Shown here piece by piece: positions 3,478 to 13,199 of a DNA stretch of 55,325 bases. The notes beneath the pieces are model-generated. The model made no database searches. It saw only the letters and a program-made list of their open reading frames with translations, and was not told the origin of the DNA. A program made the position numbers and the translations under genes. How positions within the stretch are numbered: position 1 is the stretch's first letter; every line of letters starts with the position of its first letter. This DNA comes from Alistipes sp. (GTDB taxonomy: Bacteria > Bacteroidota > Bacteroidia > Bacteroidales > Rikenellaceae): contig JAFVRN010000032.1 in assembly GCA_017504265.1 (NCBI GenBank), positions 1 to 55,325 of the forward strand, in the 5' to 3' direction.

Positions 3478-4560
3478 CTACTCTGCCTTCGACTCGCAAT
3501 ATACACAGCGAATAGTGCCACTCTCAATTGCCGATGCCTCAAAGCGTGGACGTACAGGCTCCAAATTTGAGATACACAGAGGATTAGAACACTTGCAACC
3601 TGCAATCGCCTGACCTTCGTGTTGGTCAAAATTCTTCTCAGGATTATTCTGCCACTCCAATAATTTGAGAATAAGTGCCATACGTACAAATTTGCCGTTC
3701 TCCACCTGGCGGAAGTATGCGGCACGCGGGTCGCTATCTACGTCAATGGCAATCTCGTTTACGCGGGGTAGCGGATGAAGTATTGCCATATGCTCCTTAG
3801 CACCACGCAGCTTGGCTGCATCGAGTATGAAGCAATCCTTAACGCGCTCATACTCATCCAGGTCCGTAAAACGCTCCTGCTGTACTCGCGTCATATAGAG
3901 TATATCGATATCGCCGATAACGCTCTCTATATCGTTTGACTCACGGTACTCTATGCCGAAGCGGTCGCATACATCGCGCTTGATGTAGTCGGGTAGAGCA
4001 AGCTCCGGAGGCGAGATAAGGATAAAGCGGGTATTCGAGTAGCGCGTCATAGCCTTTATCAGAGAGTGTACCGTACGGCCATATTTCAGATCTCCCACAA
4101 GACCAATAGTCAGGTTGTTGAGTGTGCCTAACTCTCGTTTGATGGTGAGCAGGTCGGTGAGTGTCTGTGTAGGATGGCTATGGCTGCCGTCACCCGCATT
4201 GATTATAGGCGTGCGTGATACCTCGGTTGCGGCAAGGGGAGCTCCCTCCACCTTGTGGCGCATAGCGATAATATCGGCAAAGCAGTTGATAACACGCACC
4301 GTATCCTGCACCGTCTCGCCCTTGGATACCGACGAAGAGCGGGCATCGGCAAAGCCGATAACATTACCGCCAAGCTCCATCATCGCCGATGTAAAGCTCA
4401 GGCGTGTACGTGTACTTGGCTCGTAGAAGAGCGTCGCAAGCTTCTTGCCGCGGCATACGTCGCTGTACTGCTCTCTGTTTGCGATGATATCTTCTGCAAG
4501 TGCAATAATCTCGGCAATCTCGTGTACCGAGAGATCAGTGGGGTCTATCAAGTGCTTCAT
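3478..4560 (-). CDS. pyrB: Aspartate carbamoyltransferase with a fused PyrI-type zinc domain
   Basis: The first ~308 of 360 residues are a standard aspartate carbamoyltransferase, which joins carbamoyl phosphate and aspartate. Visible motifs are the carbamoyl phosphate loop [12 protein letters not shown], the [12 protein letters not shown] segment and HPLPRVNEI near residue 265. A linker of about 12 residues leads to a C-terminal domain with C324-x4-C329-x22-C352-x2-C355, including CISNLEPV and CVYCESK. That pattern is the zinc domain of the regulatory chain PyrI, whose C-x4-C and C-x2-C ligands dock it on PyrB. The PyrI N-terminal nucleotide-binding domain is absent and no separate pyrI is in the window. 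It is the last gene of the operon, 29 bases after pyrE. The catalytic assignment is firm; the role of the fused domain is inferred. Confidence 0.93.
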
Positions 4561-4589: not shown

Positions 4590-5219
4590 TTACTTAATCC
4601 AACTCTCGTCAGAGGGGTTGCTTCTGAATTTTAGGATACGCTCCTTATCATCGGCCTTGATGTAACCCTCTTCGGCTGCTACCTCTACCAATGCGTCGAG
4701 GTTTGACAAAGAGTAGTTCTTGGCATTGGCAGCAGCAAGACGGTCCAAACCCTTCTGCATACCATATGTGAAGATGCTTACGATACCGAGTACATCGGCA
4801 CCTGCGCTACGCAAGGCCTCTACTACCTCGATGCAGCTGCCGCCTGTTGAGATAAGGTCCTCGACAACTACTACCTTCTGACCCTTTTCGAGCTTACCTT
4901 CAATCTGGTTGCCACGGCCGTGATCCTTCGAGCCTGAACGAACATAACCCATTGGAAGGTTGAGGATGGTAGCTGTAATTGCTGCGTGTGCGATACCTGC
5001 CGTAGATGTGCCCATAAGTACCTCTACCTCGGGGTAGTGCTTACGGATAAGCTCCGCAAGACCCTCCTCTACGTGGTTACGTACCTCGGGGGCGGTGAGA
5101 GTAAGACGGTTATCGCAATATATAGGGCTCTTGATACCACTTGCCCATGTAAAGGGCTGCTCGGGACGCAAAAATACTGCGCCGATAGAGAGTAGGTCTT
5201 TTGCTATCTTCTTTTCCAT
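4590..5219 (-). CDS. pyrE: Orotate phosphoribosyltransferase
   Basis: A 209-residue type I phosphoribosyltransferase converting orotate and PRPP to OMP. It has [16 protein letters not shown] near residue 24, the [10 protein letters not shown] loop, the mobile lysine loop [15 protein letters not shown] and the PRPP motif [13 protein letters not shown], in the usual order. Length is normal. It sits between pyrF (55-base gap) and pyrB (29-base gap). This is the largest gap within the operon, but it contains no convincing terminator or promoter. Confidence 0.95.
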
Positions 5220-5274: not shown

Positions 5275-5976
5275 CTATTCACCACAGAACTCCTTTAAGC
5301 AACGCTCATAGGCAGCTACAGGGTCGTCGGCAGCCGTAATAGGGCGACCTACAACGATGAAGTCCGAGCCAATCTCACGTGCACGTTCCGGTGTTGTTAC
5401 ACGCACCTGATCGCCTACCTCGCCATCGGCAAAGCGTACGCCCGGTGTGATTGTCATAAACTCACTGCCACACGCCTGCTTAACCATTGCAGCCTCCAAC
5501 GGAGAGCATACCACGCCATCCAGGCCGGCCTCCTTGGTGTTCTGTGCATACTTAACGATGGTATCGTTGATAGTTGCGTCTATAAGCAACTCCTTCTGCA
5601 TACGCTCCTCAGATGTTGAGGTGAGCTGCGTAACGGCAATAAGCAGTGGTCGTGTACCATCTTCGCGTGTGAGGCCCTCACGCGCAGCACGCATCATATC
5701 TATCGTGCCGGCTGCGTGTACGTTAGTCATATCGACATCCAAGTTGCGGAGTACGGACATAGCCTTCTTCACGGTGTTTGGTATATCGTGTAGTTTAAGG
5801 TCGAGGAAGATGCGGTGACCACGAGCCTTGATTGTGCGTACAATCTCCGGACCCTCGGCATAGAATAGCTCCATACCGATCTTTACAAAGGGCTTACGGC
5901 CGGTAAACTTATCCAAAAAGTTGAGTGTCTGCTCCTTGCTGCTGAAATCGCAGGCGATAATTACATCTCGTTTCAT
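5275..5976 (-). CDS. pyrF: Orotidine 5'-phosphate decarboxylase
   Basis: A 233-residue TIM-barrel enzyme that decarboxylates OMP to UMP, the last step of the pathway. It shows the catalytic charged cluster [11 protein letters not shown] near residue 58, ACDF at the start, and the phosphate-binding TPGVRF and GRPIT segments near the C-terminus. This is the short ~235-residue bacterial type. It lies 7 bases after pyrD in the same operon. Confidence 0.95.
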
Positions 5977-5983
5977 ACCTTAT

Positions 5984-6904
5984 CTATTTTACAATTCCTA
6001 TAATATCTGTTAGTCGCTCTATGCCAAGGCGTTGCATCTCGCGTGGCAGGGCCTCGATTATATCCTTTGCGGCATATGGGTTTTTGAGGTTGGCGGCACC
6101 CACCTGCACGGCAGTTGCGCCGGCCATCATCATCTCTATCACGTTGTCGGCACTACTTACGCCACCGCATCCCATAACCGGAATATGACAGGCATTGGCC
6201 ACCTGATATACCATACGTACAGCCACAGGGAAGATGGCATCTCCCGAGAAGCCGCCCATCTTATTGGCGATGACAGGTCGGCGACGCATAGTGTCTATAC
6301 GCATGCCGAGCAGCGTGTTAATCAGACATATGCCATCGGCACCTGCATCCTCGCATGCGCGTGCTATGGATACAATATCCGTAACATTGGGGCTGAGCTT
6401 GATAAATACCGGCTTTGTCGTCACGCTCTTGACACGTCGTGTAACCTCGGCTGCCGACTCGGGCTGTGTGCCGAAGCTCATACCTCCGTTATGCACATTA
6501 GGACACGATACATTAACCTCGATGATCTCCACCTGCTCCTCTTTATCTATCTTAGCACAACACTCCTCGTACTCCTCCAACGAGAAGCCACTGATGTTGG
6601 CTACTATAGGCTTGTGAAATATCGAGCGTAGGTGGGGTAGCTCCTCCGAGATAACCTTATCGATACCCGGATTTTGCAATCCTACCGAGTTTATCATGCC
6701 CGCCTCGCACTCTGCAATACGTGGTGTGGGGTTGCCAAAACGTGCATCACGTGTTGTACCCTTGAACGATATCGCTCCGAGGCAATCCAAGTCGTAGAAG
6801 TCGGCAAACTCACGGCCGAAACCAAAGGTGCCGCTTGCCGGAATTATGGGGTTGTCGAGCTTCACGCCGCAAAGCTCGACCGATGTATCGTAGTGCTTTA
6901 CCAT
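5984..6904 (-). CDS. pyrD: Dihydroorotate dehydrogenase, class 1B catalytic subunit
   Basis: A 306-residue FMN TIM-barrel enzyme that oxidises dihydroorotate to orotate. It has ASGTFGFG at the start, the active-site Cys in EVNVSCPN, KLSPNVTD, and the FMN phosphate site MGCGGVSSADN near the C-terminus. The upstream gene pyrK overlaps it by 7 bases, which marks it as class 1B: electrons go through PyrK to NAD+. Compare the PyrD-like paralogue at 53868-54842, which lacks the Cys motif. Confidence 0.95.
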   Translation of the reverse strand: MVKHYDTSVELCGVKLDNPIIPASGTFGFGREFADFYDLDCLGAISFKGTTRDARFGNPTPRIAECEAGMINSVGLQNPGIDKVISEELPHLRSIFHKPIVANISGFSLEEYEECCAKIDKEEQVEIIEVNVSCPNVHNGGMSFGTQPESAAEVTRRVKSVTTKPVFIKLSPNVTDIVSIARACEDAGADGICLINTLLGMRIDTMRRRPVIANKMGGFSGDAIFPVAVRMVYQVANACHIPVMGCGGVSSADNVIEMMMAGATAVQVGAANLKNPYAAKDIIEALPREMQRLGIERLTDIIGIVK

Positions 6905-7638
6905 ATTATCTCTTCACGTTTAAGTACAGGACCATCCTTGCATATACGCTTATTGCCATACTTGGTCTTGCACGAGCAACCCATGCAAGCACCAAAGCCA
7001 CATCCCATGCGCTCCTCGAAGCTAAATTCGGCAGCTACATCCGTAGCATCGTACAATGCTTTGAGCATAGGCAGTGGGCCACAGCTGTATATGTAGTCGA
7101 AGTCGAGACCCTTCTCCTTGATGACATCCGTCACAAAACCCTTTGTACCTACCGAGCCATCGGCTGTCGATACGAATACATCCACGCCTAAGGCCTTAAA
7201 CTCCTCGTAGTAGAATATCTCACTCTCGGTGTTAAAGCCGAGGATAACCATAGGGTGCTTACCTTCGGCAATCAGCCTCTTGCATAGGTTGTACATAGGT
7301 GGTACACCTACGCCACCGCCAACAAGTAGCGGGCGACGAGCATTGTTATCTGTCGAGAAGCCGTTGCCAAGACCCGTAAGGATGTCGAGCCTCTCGCCGA
7401 CCTGTAGCATCTTCATCTGCTCGGTGCCACGTCCTACAACCTTATATATAATGGTGATGGTGTGCTCATCGTAGTCGCAAACCGATATAGGACGACGTAG
7501 ATACTTGCCTTCAAGCTCGATATTGATGAACTGTCCCGAACGTGTTATATATTGGGTATCACCCTCCAACACCATACGGAATACCGCAGGTGTCAGAGGT
7601 GTGTTACTTACAATGGTATATTCTCCCTTTTTATACAT
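6898..7638 (-). CDS. pyrK: Dihydroorotate dehydrogenase electron-transfer subunit
   Basis: A 246-residue flavoprotein of the ferredoxin-reductase type carrying electrons from PyrD to NAD+. It has the FAD motif RRPISVCDY, an NAD-binding GGGVGVPPMYNL segment, and a C-terminal [2Fe-2S] site C213-x4-C218-x2-C221-x11-C233. Its ATG shares one base with the carB stop (TAATG), and its end overlaps pyrD by 7 bases, so translation is likely coupled through carB-pyrK-pyrD. Confidence 0.95.
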   Translation of the reverse strand: MYKKGEYTIVSNTPLTPAVFRMVLEGDTQYITRSGQFINIELEGKYLRRPISVCDYDEHTITIIYKVVGRGTEQMKMLQVGERLDILTGLGNGFSTDNNARRPLLVGGGVGVPPMYNLCKRLIAEGKHPMVILGFNTESEIFYYEEFKALGVDVFVSTADGSVGTKGFVTDVIKEKGLDFDYIYSCGPLPMLKALYDATDVAAEFSFEERMGCGFGACMGCSCKTKYGNKRICKDGPVLKREEIIW

Positions 7639-10600
7639 TATTCAGCATCGATTGTTGATACACCCAGCGTTATCTCCTCCAATACGTCGAGCAGTACGCT
7701 TACTGTCTCCAAAGCAGTGAATATTGTCACGTTGTTCTCGACGGCACAACGACGTATGTCGTAGCCGTCAAGGCGTGCGCTATGCTGGTTGATATCTATT
7801 GTGTTGATAACATAGTTTACGTGTCCCTTACGCAACGACTCGAAGATCTCCGACGAACCCTCGCTGAGCTTTCTCAGACAGCGGGTGCGTATACCGTTAT
7901 CTCGCAAGAACTTCGTAGTGCCACTTGTCGCCTCGATGTTGAAACCGAGCTCATAGAAACGACGGATAAGAGGCAGTGCCTTAGGCTTGTCGGCATCGGC
8001 GATAGATACGAAGATAGTACCGTAGTTGGCGATGGTCATACCCGACGACTGCAACGACTTATACAATGCGCGGCGTAGCGATCTGTCGTATCCGATAGCC
8101 TCACCCGTAGACTTCATTTCGGGTGATAGGTATGAATCGACACCTCGAATCTTTGCGAATGAGAAGGCAGGAGTCTTTACATACCAACGCTTCTTCTCCT
8201 CCGGAATGATAACATCTATGCCCTGCTCGCGCAACGAGTGGCCAAGCATTACGTTTGTCGCAATCTTTGCCATAGCTACACCCGTAGCCTTCGAGAGGAA
8301 TGGTACGGTACGTGACGAACGAGGATTCACCTCAATGACATATACCATATCATTGCTGTCGGCAATGAACTGTATGTTATAAAGACCACGTATGCCAATC
8401 TCCTTGCCAAGACGAATGGTGTAATCCACGATGGTATCCTTGACCTTTTGGCTTACGCTGAATGTTGGGTATACGCTGATAGAGTCTCCCGAGTGGATAC
8501 CTGTACGTTCCACGTGCTCCATAATGCCGGGGATAAATACATTCTCACCGTCGCAGATGGCATCTACCTCCAACTCCTTACCCATAATATACTTATCTAC
8601 GAGTACGGGCTGATCCTCGTTGATCTCTACAGCTGTCTTTAAGTAGTGGCGCAAAGCCTCCTCGTTAGAGACAATCTGCATGGCACGGCCACCAAGAACA
8701 TAGCTTGGACGTACCAATACGGGATATCCGATGCGCTCGGCGGCAGCTACACCACGCTCGATATCGGTGATAGCCTCGGCATCGGGCTGAGGAATACCCG
8801 CACGGCGCATAATGGCCTCGAAGCACTTTCTGTCCTCGGCATTGTTGATGGCTTCGATACCCGTACCAATAATCTTCACTCCGAGGTCCGACAATGGCTT
8901 CGCAAGGTTGATTGCGGTCTGTCCGCCCAGCGATACCACAACACCCGTAGGTTTCTCAAAGTCGATGACGTTCATCACATCCTCGACAGTCAAAGGCTCG
9001 AAGTAGAGCTTATCGCTGATGGTGTAGTCCGTAGATACTGTCTCGGGGTTGTTGTTGATGATGATGGCCTCATATCCTGCCTCACGTATAGCCCAGATGG
9101 CGTGTACCGTAGAGTAGTCGAACTCCACTCCCTGGCCGATACGTATAGGACCCGAGCCGAGTACAACGATCTTCTGGCGATCACTTACCACCGACTCGTT
9201 CTCCTGCTCATATGTAGAATATAGGTATGGTACCTCCGACTCAAACTCGGCAGCACACGTATCAATCATCTTGTATACCGGGAAGATGTTGTGCTCCTTG
9301 CGAAGAAGGAATACCTCCGACTCGGTCATGTTCCATAGTCTGCCGATATACTTATCGCTGAAACCAAGACGCTTAGCATCGTATAGTACCTCCTTGTTAC
9401 GAGGGTTCTGCTCTACGACCTTCTCCATCTCGACAATATTCTTGAGCTTCTCGAGGAAGAAGAGGTCAATCTTGGTGTTGTCGTATACGTGTAGCAAATC
9501 TACGCCACGACGTATCAACTCTGCAATAGCGTATAGACGGTCGTCCGTGCCCTTGCGAATATATGCGAGGATGCCCTCAACCGACATTGCGTCAAACTTC
9601 TTGTGGTAGATGTGGCATACGCCTGTCTCCAACGAGCGCACTGCTTTGAGCAGACCCTCCTCGAAGGTGCGGCCAACGCTCATCACCTCACCCGTAGCCT
9701 TCATCTGTGTGCCGAGTTCGTTCGAAGCATCGCTAAACTTGTCAAATGGGAAGCGCGCAACCTTTGTTACGATGTAGTCGAGCGTAGGCTCGAAGCTGGC
9801 CGGTGTATTGGCGATACGTATCTCGTCGAGAGTCATACCCACTGCAACCTTAGCCGTTACACGGGCAATAGGGTAGCCACTCGCCTTAGATGCCAAGGCC
9901 GACGAACGGCTCACACGAGGATTTACCTCGATGATATAGTATTTGAACGATAGTGGGTCGAGTGCAAACTGCACGTTGCATCCACCCTCAATTTTGAGTG
10001 CGCGTATAAGCTTCAATGCACTTGAACGCAACATCTGATACTCCTTGTTTGCCAACGTCTGGCTTGGGGCTACCACAATAGAGTCACCGGTGTGGATACC
10101 TACCGGATCGACATTCTCCATCGAGCAGATGGTGATGGCCGTATCGTTCTTGTCGCGCATCACCTCGAACTCAATCTCCTTGTAGCCCTTAATGCTCTTC
10201 TCTACAAGCACCTGATGTATAGGCGATAGGGCCAAGGCGTTACGCATAATATCACGTAGCTCCTCCTCGTTGTCGGCAAAGCCGCCTCCCGTACCGCCGA
10301 GCGTGAATGCAGGGCGTAGAACTACGGGATAGCCAATCTTCGAGGCGGCCTCTACACCCTCCTCGATAGTGTTGGTGATATACGAAGGAATCACAGGCTC
10401 GCCGATGCGCACGCAAAGCTCCTTGAAGAGCTCTCTATCCTCGGCCTCTTCGATAGAGGTAAACGATGTACCCAAAATCTCTACGCCACACTCCTCCAAG
10501 ATACCCTTCTTGGCAAGCTGCACAGCAAGGTTAAGACCTGTCTGGCCACCGAGGCCGGGAACGATGGCATCGGGACGCTCATAGCGGATAATCTTTGCTA

Positions 10601-10820
10601 CATACTCCAATGTCAATGGCTCCATATATACCTTGTCGGCAATATGGGTGTCGGTCATTATAGTTGCAGGATTAGAGTTCACCAAGATAACCTGATAACC
10701 CTCCTCTTTGAGTGCAAGACACGCCTGTGTTCCGGCGTAGTCGAACTCTGCGGCTTGGCCGATAACGATAGGACCAGAGCCGATGACCATTATTTTCTTG
10801 ATATCTGTTCTCTTAGGCAT
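7638..10820 (-). CDS. carB: Carbamoyl phosphate synthetase large subunit
   Basis: A 1060-residue protein with the two duplicated ATP-grasp halves ([20 protein letters not shown] near residue 13 and the matching [20 protein letters not shown] near residue 555). A C-terminal MGS-type allosteric domain runs from about residue 935. It makes carbamoyl phosphate from bicarbonate, ammonia and two ATP. Nothing in either half looks damaged. It overlaps carA by 8 bases. Since the partner CarA lacks glutaminase residues, CarB here may have to use free ammonia. Confidence 0.96.
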
Positions 10821-11901
10821 TTTTGTTCTCCTCCATCAGTTTAATGAATTTATCGAAAAGATAGCTGCTGCTCGCTTCAGGAGCACAATTGGGATGATAG
10901 TGTACCGAGAACACCTTGTCGTGCAAAGACTCGATACCGGCTATCGTGTTATCGAGGATGTTGCGATGTGTAACAACCAACTGTGTGCCTTTCAACGACT
11001 CCTCGTCTATAGCGTAGCTGTGATTTTGTGTGACTATTTCGAGCTTATCGTTACTCAAACACTTAACGGGGTGGTTGGCACCACGGTGTCCGAACTTCAT
11101 CTTTATGCTCCTTGCTCCAAAAGTCGATGCGATGATTTGGTGTCCTAAGCCTACACCAAAGATAGGTAGCTTGCCACGTAGCTCAGTGAGAGCCTTGCCT
11201 ACAACAGCCACATCGTCGGGGTTACCCGGACCGTTCGATACGAAGATACCATCGGGGTTGAAGGCGAGGATATCCTCTGCCGATGAGTCGAATGGCACAA
11301 TCGTTACGTTACATCCCTTGGCATTTAGCTGACGGATAAAGCTGTACTTGATACCGCAGTCGATAGCCACTACATCCCACTTGTGGTTGGGAGTACGTGA
11401 AAACCAACGCTTCTTGCAACTTACGCGCTCCACCTGATTGCGGCGTAGCTCGGTGTTGCGTACAAGGCTCAGGGCCTCTTCGGTCGGTGTGTCGATGTCC
11501 ACGATAACAGCCTTCTGTGTACCCTCGTTGCGGATGATACGGGTGATCATACGTGTATCCACGCCGCTGATACCCGGAATATCAAGCTCCTCAAACGCCT
11601 CGTTCATAGTCTTGGTATAGCGGAAGTTGCTGGGAGAATCGCAGCACTCGCGAACAACCATACCGCCCATTAATGCCGACTTACTCTCGTTATCCTCGTC
11701 GGTAAAACCGTAGTTGCCCATCAAAGGATAGGTCATAACCACAATTTGGTCGGTGTAGGTCGGGTCGGATATAATCTCCTGATAGCCAACCATCGAGGTG
11801 TTGAACACCAACTCGCATACCGTAGCACGGTTCGAGCCGAAGCCATAGCCCGGAAACTCCTTGCCGTTTTCAAGTACAAGTTTCTTGGTAAAAGGTTTCA
11901 T
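10813..11901 (-). CDS. carA: Carbamoyl phosphate synthetase small subunit lacking glutaminase catalytic residues
   Basis: A 362-residue CarA with the normal N-terminal domain ([29 protein letters not shown]) and a class I glutamine amidotransferase domain from about residue 180. The nucleophile elbow, GICLGHQ in active enzymes, reads GVGLGHQ: codon GGC at 11149-11151 gives Gly251 in place of Cys. The triad region, usually HPEA, reads HPNC: His336 is kept but Glu is Asn338. The neighbouring NHGF reads NHSY and the usual PGPHD after the triad is missing. The frame is open and the rest well conserved, so this is not a pseudogene. I infer a structural or regulatory subunit with no glutaminase. 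It is 17 bases after pyrC. Confidence 0.93.
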
Positions 11902-11918
11902 CTAATCTTGTTTTTATG

Positions 11919-13199
11919 TTATTTTGTTTTGCTGTCGTAAACTATATTTCCGCGGTGCAAGGTCATCACCACGTCGCCACACATATCACGTCCGTCGAAC
12001 ATCGTAATCTTGCCCATTGAGTAGAAGTCGCGGCTATCGACTCTCCACTCCTTCTCGGTGTCGATGATTACCACATCGGCTCTGTCGCCTATGTTAAGGC
12101 CTCCCTCTATGCCAAATACCTTGCGAGGGTTGATGCTCATAAGCTCTACAAGACGGTCAAGCGAGATGATACCCTTGCGTACAAGGTGTGTGTTGAGGGC
12201 TGCAAAGGCTGTTTCAAGGCCTACGATACCCATCGCGCTATCCTTCAATCCTCGTGACTTCTCCTCGATGCTGTGCGGTGCGTGGTCGGTGGCAATCATA
12301 TCTATCGTACCATCCTTGATACCCTCGATGAGTGCTGCACGATCCTCGGCCGAGCGCAGTGGCGGGTTCATCTTCCAGCGTGCATCCTCTTGCAGATCTA
12401 TATCCGAGAATATAAGGTAGTGCGGGCCGGTTTCGCATGTTACCTTCACGCCACGTGCCTTGGCCTTGCGGATAAGCTCTACGGTCTGCTTCGTAGAGAT
12501 GTGACATACATGGTAGCGGCATCCGCTCTTCTCGGCAAGCTCTATATCGCGTTCTACCTGTCCCCATTCACTCTCCGAGCATATTCCCTTATGTCCGTGC
12601 TGTCGGGCATATTCGCCATCGTGGATATAGCCGCCACGCAGAAGCTCCTCCACCTCGCAGTGTGCTGCAATTATTGCATCGTGCTTCACTGCCTCGGTCA
12701 TTGCCGCTTCCATCATCTTATCGTGCTGCACACCCGAACCATCATCCGAAAAGGCGCAAACCTTACCTTTGAGAGCTTCGATATCGACCAGCTCCTCGCC
12801 CTTGCGACCTATGGTGATTGCAGCGTAGGGTAGTACCTCTATCTTGGCATCGCGGTCGATGATATCCTGTTGTGCTTTGAGGTTCTCCACGCTATCCGGC
12901 ACAGGGTTGAGATTGGGCATCGAGCATACGGTAGAGTAGCCGCCGCGAGCAGCCGCCATAGTGCCTGTTGCTATTCTCTCTTTATAGCCGAAACCTGGCT
13001 CACGAAGGTGTACGTGTACATCGACAAATGCCGGTGCTACAACAAGTCCGTTGGCCTCAATCACGTGGTCATTTGGTGTTGAGGTAATGTTTTCGGCAAT
13101 CTCTACTATGCGCTCCTGCTCGATGGCTATATCTGCCTTTCCTTGGCGAGAGCTGCCTAAAATAGTGCCTCCTTTGATTATAATTCTTGCTTTATCCAT
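11919..13199 (-). CDS. pyrC: Dihydroorotase
   Basis: A 426-residue amidohydrolase that cyclises carbamoyl aspartate to dihydroorotate. The metal-binding motif DVHVHLREPG is at residues 60-69, with later GPHYL and ATDHAPHS segments, as in class I (PyrC/AllB-like) dihydroorotases. Being first in a pyr operon decides for dihydroorotase over allantoinase. Its ATG lies five bases after the T-tract of the upstream terminator, so almost no leader mRNA remains between attenuator and start codon. Confidence 0.93.
   Translation of the reverse strand: MDKARIIIKGGTILGSSRQGKADIAIEQERIVEIAENITSTPNDHVIEANGLVVAPAFVDVHVHLREPGFGYKERIATGTMAAARGGYSTVCSMPNLNPVPDSVENLKAQQDIIDRDAKIEVLPYAAITIGRKGEELVDIEALKGKVCAFSDDGSGVQHDKMMEAAMTEAVKHDAIIAAHCEVEELLRGGYIHDGEYARQHGHKGICSESEWGQVERDIELAEKSGCRYHVCHISTKQTVELIRKAKARGVKVTCETGPHYLIFSDIDLQEDARWKMNPPLRSAEDRAALIEGIKDGTIDMIATDHAPHSIEEKSRGLKDSAMGIVGLETAFAALNTHLVRKGIISLDRLVELMSINPRKVFGIEGGLNIGDRADVVIIDTEKEWRVDSRDFYSMGKITMFDGRDMCGDVVMTLHRGNIVYDSKTK

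Follow-up and report, generated by a model that had tools for sequence, protein, structure and literature searches.

A carbamoyl phosphate synthetase small subunit of Alistipes with an apparently inactivated glutaminase, and the probable use of free ammonia

The window, i.e. the whole stretch of 55,325 nucleotides that was analysed, contains a group of pyrimidine genes on the minus strand. The small subunit of carbamoyl phosphate synthetase (CPSase), carA, is located at 10813..11901 (362 aa, ATG to stop), and its glutaminase is predicted to be dead. Its upstream neighbour is a pyrC-like dihydroorotase (11919..13199), and downstream follow carB, the large (synthetase) subunit (7638..10820, 1060 aa, TIGR01369 with 1489 bits), whose ORF overlaps the end of carA, and a pyrK-like gene (6898..7638). 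The pyrC-like and pyrK-like genes were named by reading and keep their places in related loci, where the order pyrC-carA-carB-pyrK is intact as far as each contig reaches. Also by reading, pyrD-like (5984..6904), pyrF-like (5275..5976) and pyrE-like (4590..5219) genes were assigned. The N-domain of a carbamoyltransferase, probably pyrB, is found at 4138..4557 (PF02729, 159 bits, the one match in the window genome). The CarA of the operon (6898-13199) is 63-65% identical to CarAs of MAGs labelled Clostridia or Paludibacteraceae and only 31-41% identical to those of most other Rikenellaceae genera, a difference that suggests a horizontal transfer of the pyr operon.

In a profile search the CarA of the window obtains 410 bits against TIGR01368, above the cut-off of 307.35; this profile describes the glutamine-hydrolysing small subunit. 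The AlphaFold model (pLDDT 88.4) retains the CarA fold. The first match of the model in Foldseek is E. coli CarA (1a9x_B, E 8.4e-46, TM-score by query 0.92), with the ammonia-specific human CPS1 ranking after it, and the E. coli mutants C269S (1c30) and G359F (1m6v) are among the nearest folds. Profile score, fold and the adjacent carB and pyrimidine genes all identify the gene as a carA. The class I glutaminase (GATase) domain covers 10840..11367 (PF00117, 145.5 bits). At the position of the nucleophile, E. coli Cys269, it has Gly251 (codon GGC, 11149..11151), and at that of the triad glutamate, E. coli Glu355, it has Asn338 (AAT, 10888..10890). Both replacements had been reported by an earlier, sequence-only reading of this DNA and are confirmed here by codon reading and alignment. 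The third triad residue, His336 (CAT, 10894..10896, E. coli His353), is present. According to the accessible text of PMC6245113, Cys269 and His353 are essential to glutamine hydrolysis in E. coli.

We collected related loci from named genome contigs and retained the best 80 of 388. Among these 80, 33 lack the Cys (L034-L066, 76-85% identical) and 47 have it (L067-L113); the relatives labelled Clostridia retain it. By their titles, 30 of the 33 come from the hindgut (colon, cecum or rectum) of a ruminant, and three name no host. Together with the window these loci make up 34 distinct sequences, mostly from ruminant-hindgut Alistipes MAGs, and they form a single group with an SH-aLRT of 100 in a quick-search tree from which the three triad columns were left out. 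The Cys, His and Glu positions read D/Q/D in 29 sequences, G/Q/D in two, D/Q/A in one, D/Q/gap in one and G/H/N in the window. None of the 34 has the Cys, its position being D in 31 and G in three, the H353 position is Q in 33, and E355 is lost in all. Two cysteines are newly fixed in this clade, Cys339 (E. coli 356, 32/34) and Cys87 (E. coli 86, 34/34).

The intact relatives retain all four of Cys269, H353, E355 and G359 (66/66). The missing PGPHD loop had been listed as a mark of the loss, and it is one, as G359 is gapped in 34/34 lost and present in 66/66 intact sequences. The reading NHSY had been listed with it and has to be given up, since the Ser at E. coli G313 is also found in 62 of the 66 intact relatives. 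Two other changes had escaped notice: Thr replaces Ser47 and Val replaces Thr308 in 34/34 clade CarAs. The His had been described as kept: the codon is there, but that it was kept is doubtful, because 33 of the 34 members have Gln and the window is nested among them. A regain is simpler than a remnant, and His336 is probably a later regain, with two changes on the tree.

The loss extends beyond this clade. The family sample has 150 genomes, 119 of them with a CarA over the cut-off, and the CarA of all 119 was read. It lacks the nucleophile in 39, of which 31 belong to the genus of the window, six to genus g20 and two to g16. In the window's genus (62 genomes including its own), 27 genomes have the Cys, 31 do not, and four (G104, G108, G121, G139) have no CarA over the cut-off. 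The nucleophile is replaced by Asp, Gly, Ser, Asn or Arg in the family, and the replacement codons differ (GGN, TCN, AGT, AAT, CGC). A tree of 93 rows gives eight nucleophile changes, at least seven of them forced by well-supported branches, and a tree of 87 rows, excluding six g16 rows, gives six changes, all in the Alistipes-type gene; both trees come from quick searches in which long branches were flagged, and the exact loss counts may therefore shift. The 93-row tree took 14 of the 34 window-clade sequences, eight of the 47 loci that are named and intact, and six of 52 Bacteroidetes-type rows (Asn at E. coli 272), so that 46 of the latter, L241, L243 and L246 among them, were omitted. A single origin in the Alistipes-type gene is rejected (p-AU 0.000538; 87 rows, 43 lost rows constrained together).

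According to these trees, the glutaminase nucleophile is lost repeatedly and independently in the family. The alignment at residues 251, 336 and 338, with the loss mapped on a tree, had been proposed as a check by the sequence-only reading; its outcome supports a clade-wide and recurrent conversion, wider than first noted, rather than an oddity of one genome. His and Glu are retained in some loss groups (L226, L228, L230-L239) and also lost in others (the window clade; L245, L249, L252, L253, L257, L258), which looks like successive stages of triad loss. Three g20 genomes (L241, L243, L246) have the Cys present, Q and D at the His and Glu positions, and the PGP loop lost, a different form of triad damage.

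Outside the family, the order sample of 198 genomes contains 101 with a CarA over the cut-off, the window's included. We read 79 of the remaining 100, starting at the lowest rank and stopping short of the 21 highest-scoring, and found Cys, His and Glu all retained in 79/79, so that within the genomes read the losses are particular to Rikenellaceae. A loss across Bacteroidota was searched for as Gly or Asp before LGHQ, a pattern that is blind to other replacements, and was rejected: the pattern is found in 25 of 395 genomes, at 27 places, and only the window's own fell in CarA.

The search for a second, intact CarA in the window's assembly found none over the cut-off; the genome is 89.6% complete, so one could be missed. 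Seven clade mates (90-98% complete) have one CarA over the cut-off each and no second. In the family, three of the 39 nucleophile-less genomes (G105, G112 and G141; L240, L173 and L172) also hold an intact CarA, in which the Cys is present and which adjoins a second CarB, besides the nucleophile-less CarA of the operon; we count these three against the use of ammonia. The PF00117 proteins of the window genome are three, CarA and two with the size and motif of CTP synthase and GMP synthase, both with the Cys; the names PyrG-like and GuaA-like were assigned by size and motif. The seven clade mates have two or three such proteins each, and the Cys is retained in the PyrG-like (5/8 genomes read) and GuaA-like (4/8 read) amidotransferases. 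Among the translations of the window, the presumed PurL contains GICNGFQ, presumably its glutaminase motif, and the presumed PurF has a Cys close to its N-terminus. Some other glutaminase could dock on CarB or on the dead CarA and deliver ammonia, which is compatible with the sequence data of a search that covered the PF00117 class. However, the only members of that class besides CarA in the window genome are of PyrG and GuaA size, and CarA itself is still under selection, and we consider a docking partner very improbable.

The glutamine pocket is largely retained in the clade: E. coli D45, G241, G243, Q273 and H312 are found in 34/34, N311 in 33 and K202 in 31, residues that we take to contact glutamine. 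With so much of the pocket in place glutamine might still bind, and it might serve as a signal. The same residues, and the newly fixed Cys339, could also be taken to mean that CarA still hydrolyses glutamine, either with Cys339 as a relocated nucleophile or with the Asp at the nucleophile position and another base. However, E. coli 356 is S, G, A or P and never Cys in the family sample's remaining 31 CarAs that lack the nucleophile, and their nucleophile position is G, S, N or R. The window clade has moreover replaced its His and Glu and altered Ser47 and the G359 loop. Continued hydrolysis by such a route is very unlikely.

To see how the genes evolve, we compared median pairwise dN/dS values, which are rough since dS is near saturation (median 1.19). 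In the lost clade the GATase part has a value of 0.108 (503/561 pairs usable), pyrC 0.092 (493/528 pairs), pyrK 0.097 (379/406 pairs) and carB 0.044 (378/378 pairs), and the GATase part of intact Alistipes has 0.149 (369/378 pairs). Other loss groups obtain 0.139 (16/21 pairs), 0.121 (10/10, one row missing) and 0.162 (4/10); L249, L230, L231 and L232 are absent from the codon comparison, and one loss group, left with one pair, was unused. With a rough dN/dS of about 0.1, the carA of the clade is by this measure under purifying selection and not decaying. The opposite reading, a decaying carA in a cell living on imported pyrimidines, could point to the internal stop in L050 and to the five residues deleted from the triad loop of L065, both clade members. 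It has to account for the low dN/dS over 34 sequences, the absence of an internal stop from 33 of them, an intact operon and a CarB with 92-98% identity to that of the window across the part covered, and it is highly implausible. Sequencing or binning error has a negligible chance, as had been argued earlier: the named clade relatives are all draft MAGs by title, but the correlated changes recur in 33 contigs that represent many different isolates and hosts, Cys to Asp takes two base changes, and the Cys is absent from 34/34 clade sequences and present in 65/65 other rows of the tree.

Each of the 8 genomes of the window clade has one carbamoyltransferase, which in the window lies close to the operon; pyrimidines are therefore probably the only use of carbamoyl phosphate. 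A general switch to ammonia is unsupported, as glutamine synthetase is retained in 8/8 clade genomes and the ammonia-using AsnA, sought in 11 genomes, was found in 0/11. The glutamine synthetase match (G000:C6:91065-92081 and its mates) lies in a frame of 502-512 aa in the 8 window-clade genomes and of 728-773 aa in the intact sisters G038, G110 and G120. One form of the enzyme has apparently been swapped for another; the longer frame presumably has the size of GSIII.

The large subunit could be checked at 90% cover or more in 28 of the 34 lost-clade rows. At 24 of 28 checked positions, whose numbers we take to be those of the catalytic and tunnel residues, all 28 sequences have the E. coli residue. 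These include R129, R169, E215, H243, Q285, E299, N301, R303, R675, R715, E761, H788, Q829, E841, N843 and R845, and the tunnel positions E217, C232, A251 and A314. The remaining four (208, 210, 754, 756) are unlike E. coli and agree with the majority of intact relatives.

The loss of the glutaminase is thus strongly supported, being clade-wide and recurrent, in genes under purifying selection and with no second carA found. We think it likely that the clade has a CPSase small subunit that does not hydrolyse glutamine and is still needed, with CarB running on free ammonia. The dead CarA would be retained probably to stabilise and regulate CarB, and its N-domain, which keeps 61 of 68 invariant columns while the glutaminase part keeps 60 of 91, fits such a structural or regulatory role. 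In the carboxyphosphate step CarB would use free ammonia, of which the gut has plenty, and the carbamoyl phosphate made from it would then feed pyrimidine synthesis. The use of ammonia had been proposed in the sequence-only reading; it is the simplest consequence of the unchanged CarB sites, and we infer it, together with the route of entry and the remaining role of CarA, for the living cell from sequences. The available text of PMC4655335 describes E. coli variants whose tunnel is blocked or perforated; they are unable to use glutamine and have normal activity with external ammonia, which makes the ammonia chemistry feasible. The accessible part of PMC6245113 gives a very high ammonia requirement for the E. 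coli CPSase; one would therefore expect Km-lowering changes in the clade sequences, and we identified none.

A further route to ammonia dependence would be a CarB without a CarA, unless such genomes use an unrecognised glutaminase. In the window's genus, three genomes that are 94-96% complete, G104, G108 and G121, carry a second type of CarB at full length, with 1076-1077 aa (L170 4699-7929, L171 4206-7436 and L266 2939-6172, respectively), and by profile search have no CarA over the cut-off in their assemblies. In G104 and G108 this CarB shares 42% identity with that of the window, and the only PF00117 proteins there have the size of GuaA and PyrG. Each of the three genomes has two carbamoyltransferases. 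A similar second-type CarB lies beside arg-like genes in L270 (G017). In the order sample, CarB over the cut-off is found without CarA over the cut-off in G379, G649, G682, G694, G708 and G731.

A bolder account, which we regard as possible and rather unlikely, is that gut Rikenellaceae changed a glutamine-fed CPSase into an ammonia-fed one about six to eight separate times and remodelled the old glutaminase instead of giving it up, in parallel with vertebrate CPS I. In the ruminant clade the Asp at the nucleophile position (31/34), the Gln-Pro-Asp-Cys triad loop and the G359 deletion would then make up an entrance through which ammonium or ammonia reaches the old tunnel. The living stages would be the loss of the Cys alone, the loss of the whole triad and the absence of CarA.

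To our knowledge, the step from glutamine to ammonia is otherwise known from vertebrate CPS I. The family may offer a natural series of replicates in which a glutamine-dependent CPSase becomes ammonia-dependent, and nucleotide synthesis may be tied to the high ammonia levels found in the gut. In the accessible part of a review, glutamine is given as the physiologically relevant donor for E. coli. Half of the sampled genomes of the Alistipes genus carry a nucleophile-less CarA, through several independent losses, which on sequence grounds argues against glutamine as the donor by rule. In titles and abstract openings of the open-licence PMC literature we found no bacterial CarA without the Cys.

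Among known systems, E. coli CarAB (1A9X, 1JDB) is alike in the two-subunit fold, the carA-carB order and the catalytic residues of CarB. However, it uses glutamine, and in the window the Cys and Glu are replaced and the G359 residue is deleted; the corresponding E. coli mutants in the PDB are C269S (1C30) and G359F (1M6V). Isolated E. coli CarB reportedly makes the product with ammonia, in work by Rubino et al. in 1987. This resembles the proposed synthesis from ammonia by the large subunit, but it is an experimental situation, whereas the window clade retains CarA under constraint. Vertebrate CPS I (human CPS1, 5DOT, 5DOU) is alike in retaining an inactive glutaminase domain, and its donor is ammonia. 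According to the available text of PMC4655335, its catalytic Cys is changed to Ser. In the clade the triad is replaced, the G359 loop gone and the checked CarB sites unchanged, which would fit an ammonia-dependent CPSase of this kind. However, CPS I is a single chain of 1500 residues that is activated by N-acetylglutamate and serves urea synthesis, while carA and carB of the window are separate ORFs, so the window's enzyme is not a CPS I proper; its subunits are bacterial and lie in a pyr operon, and the losses are independent. The CPSase of the window is best read as convergent with vertebrate CPS I.
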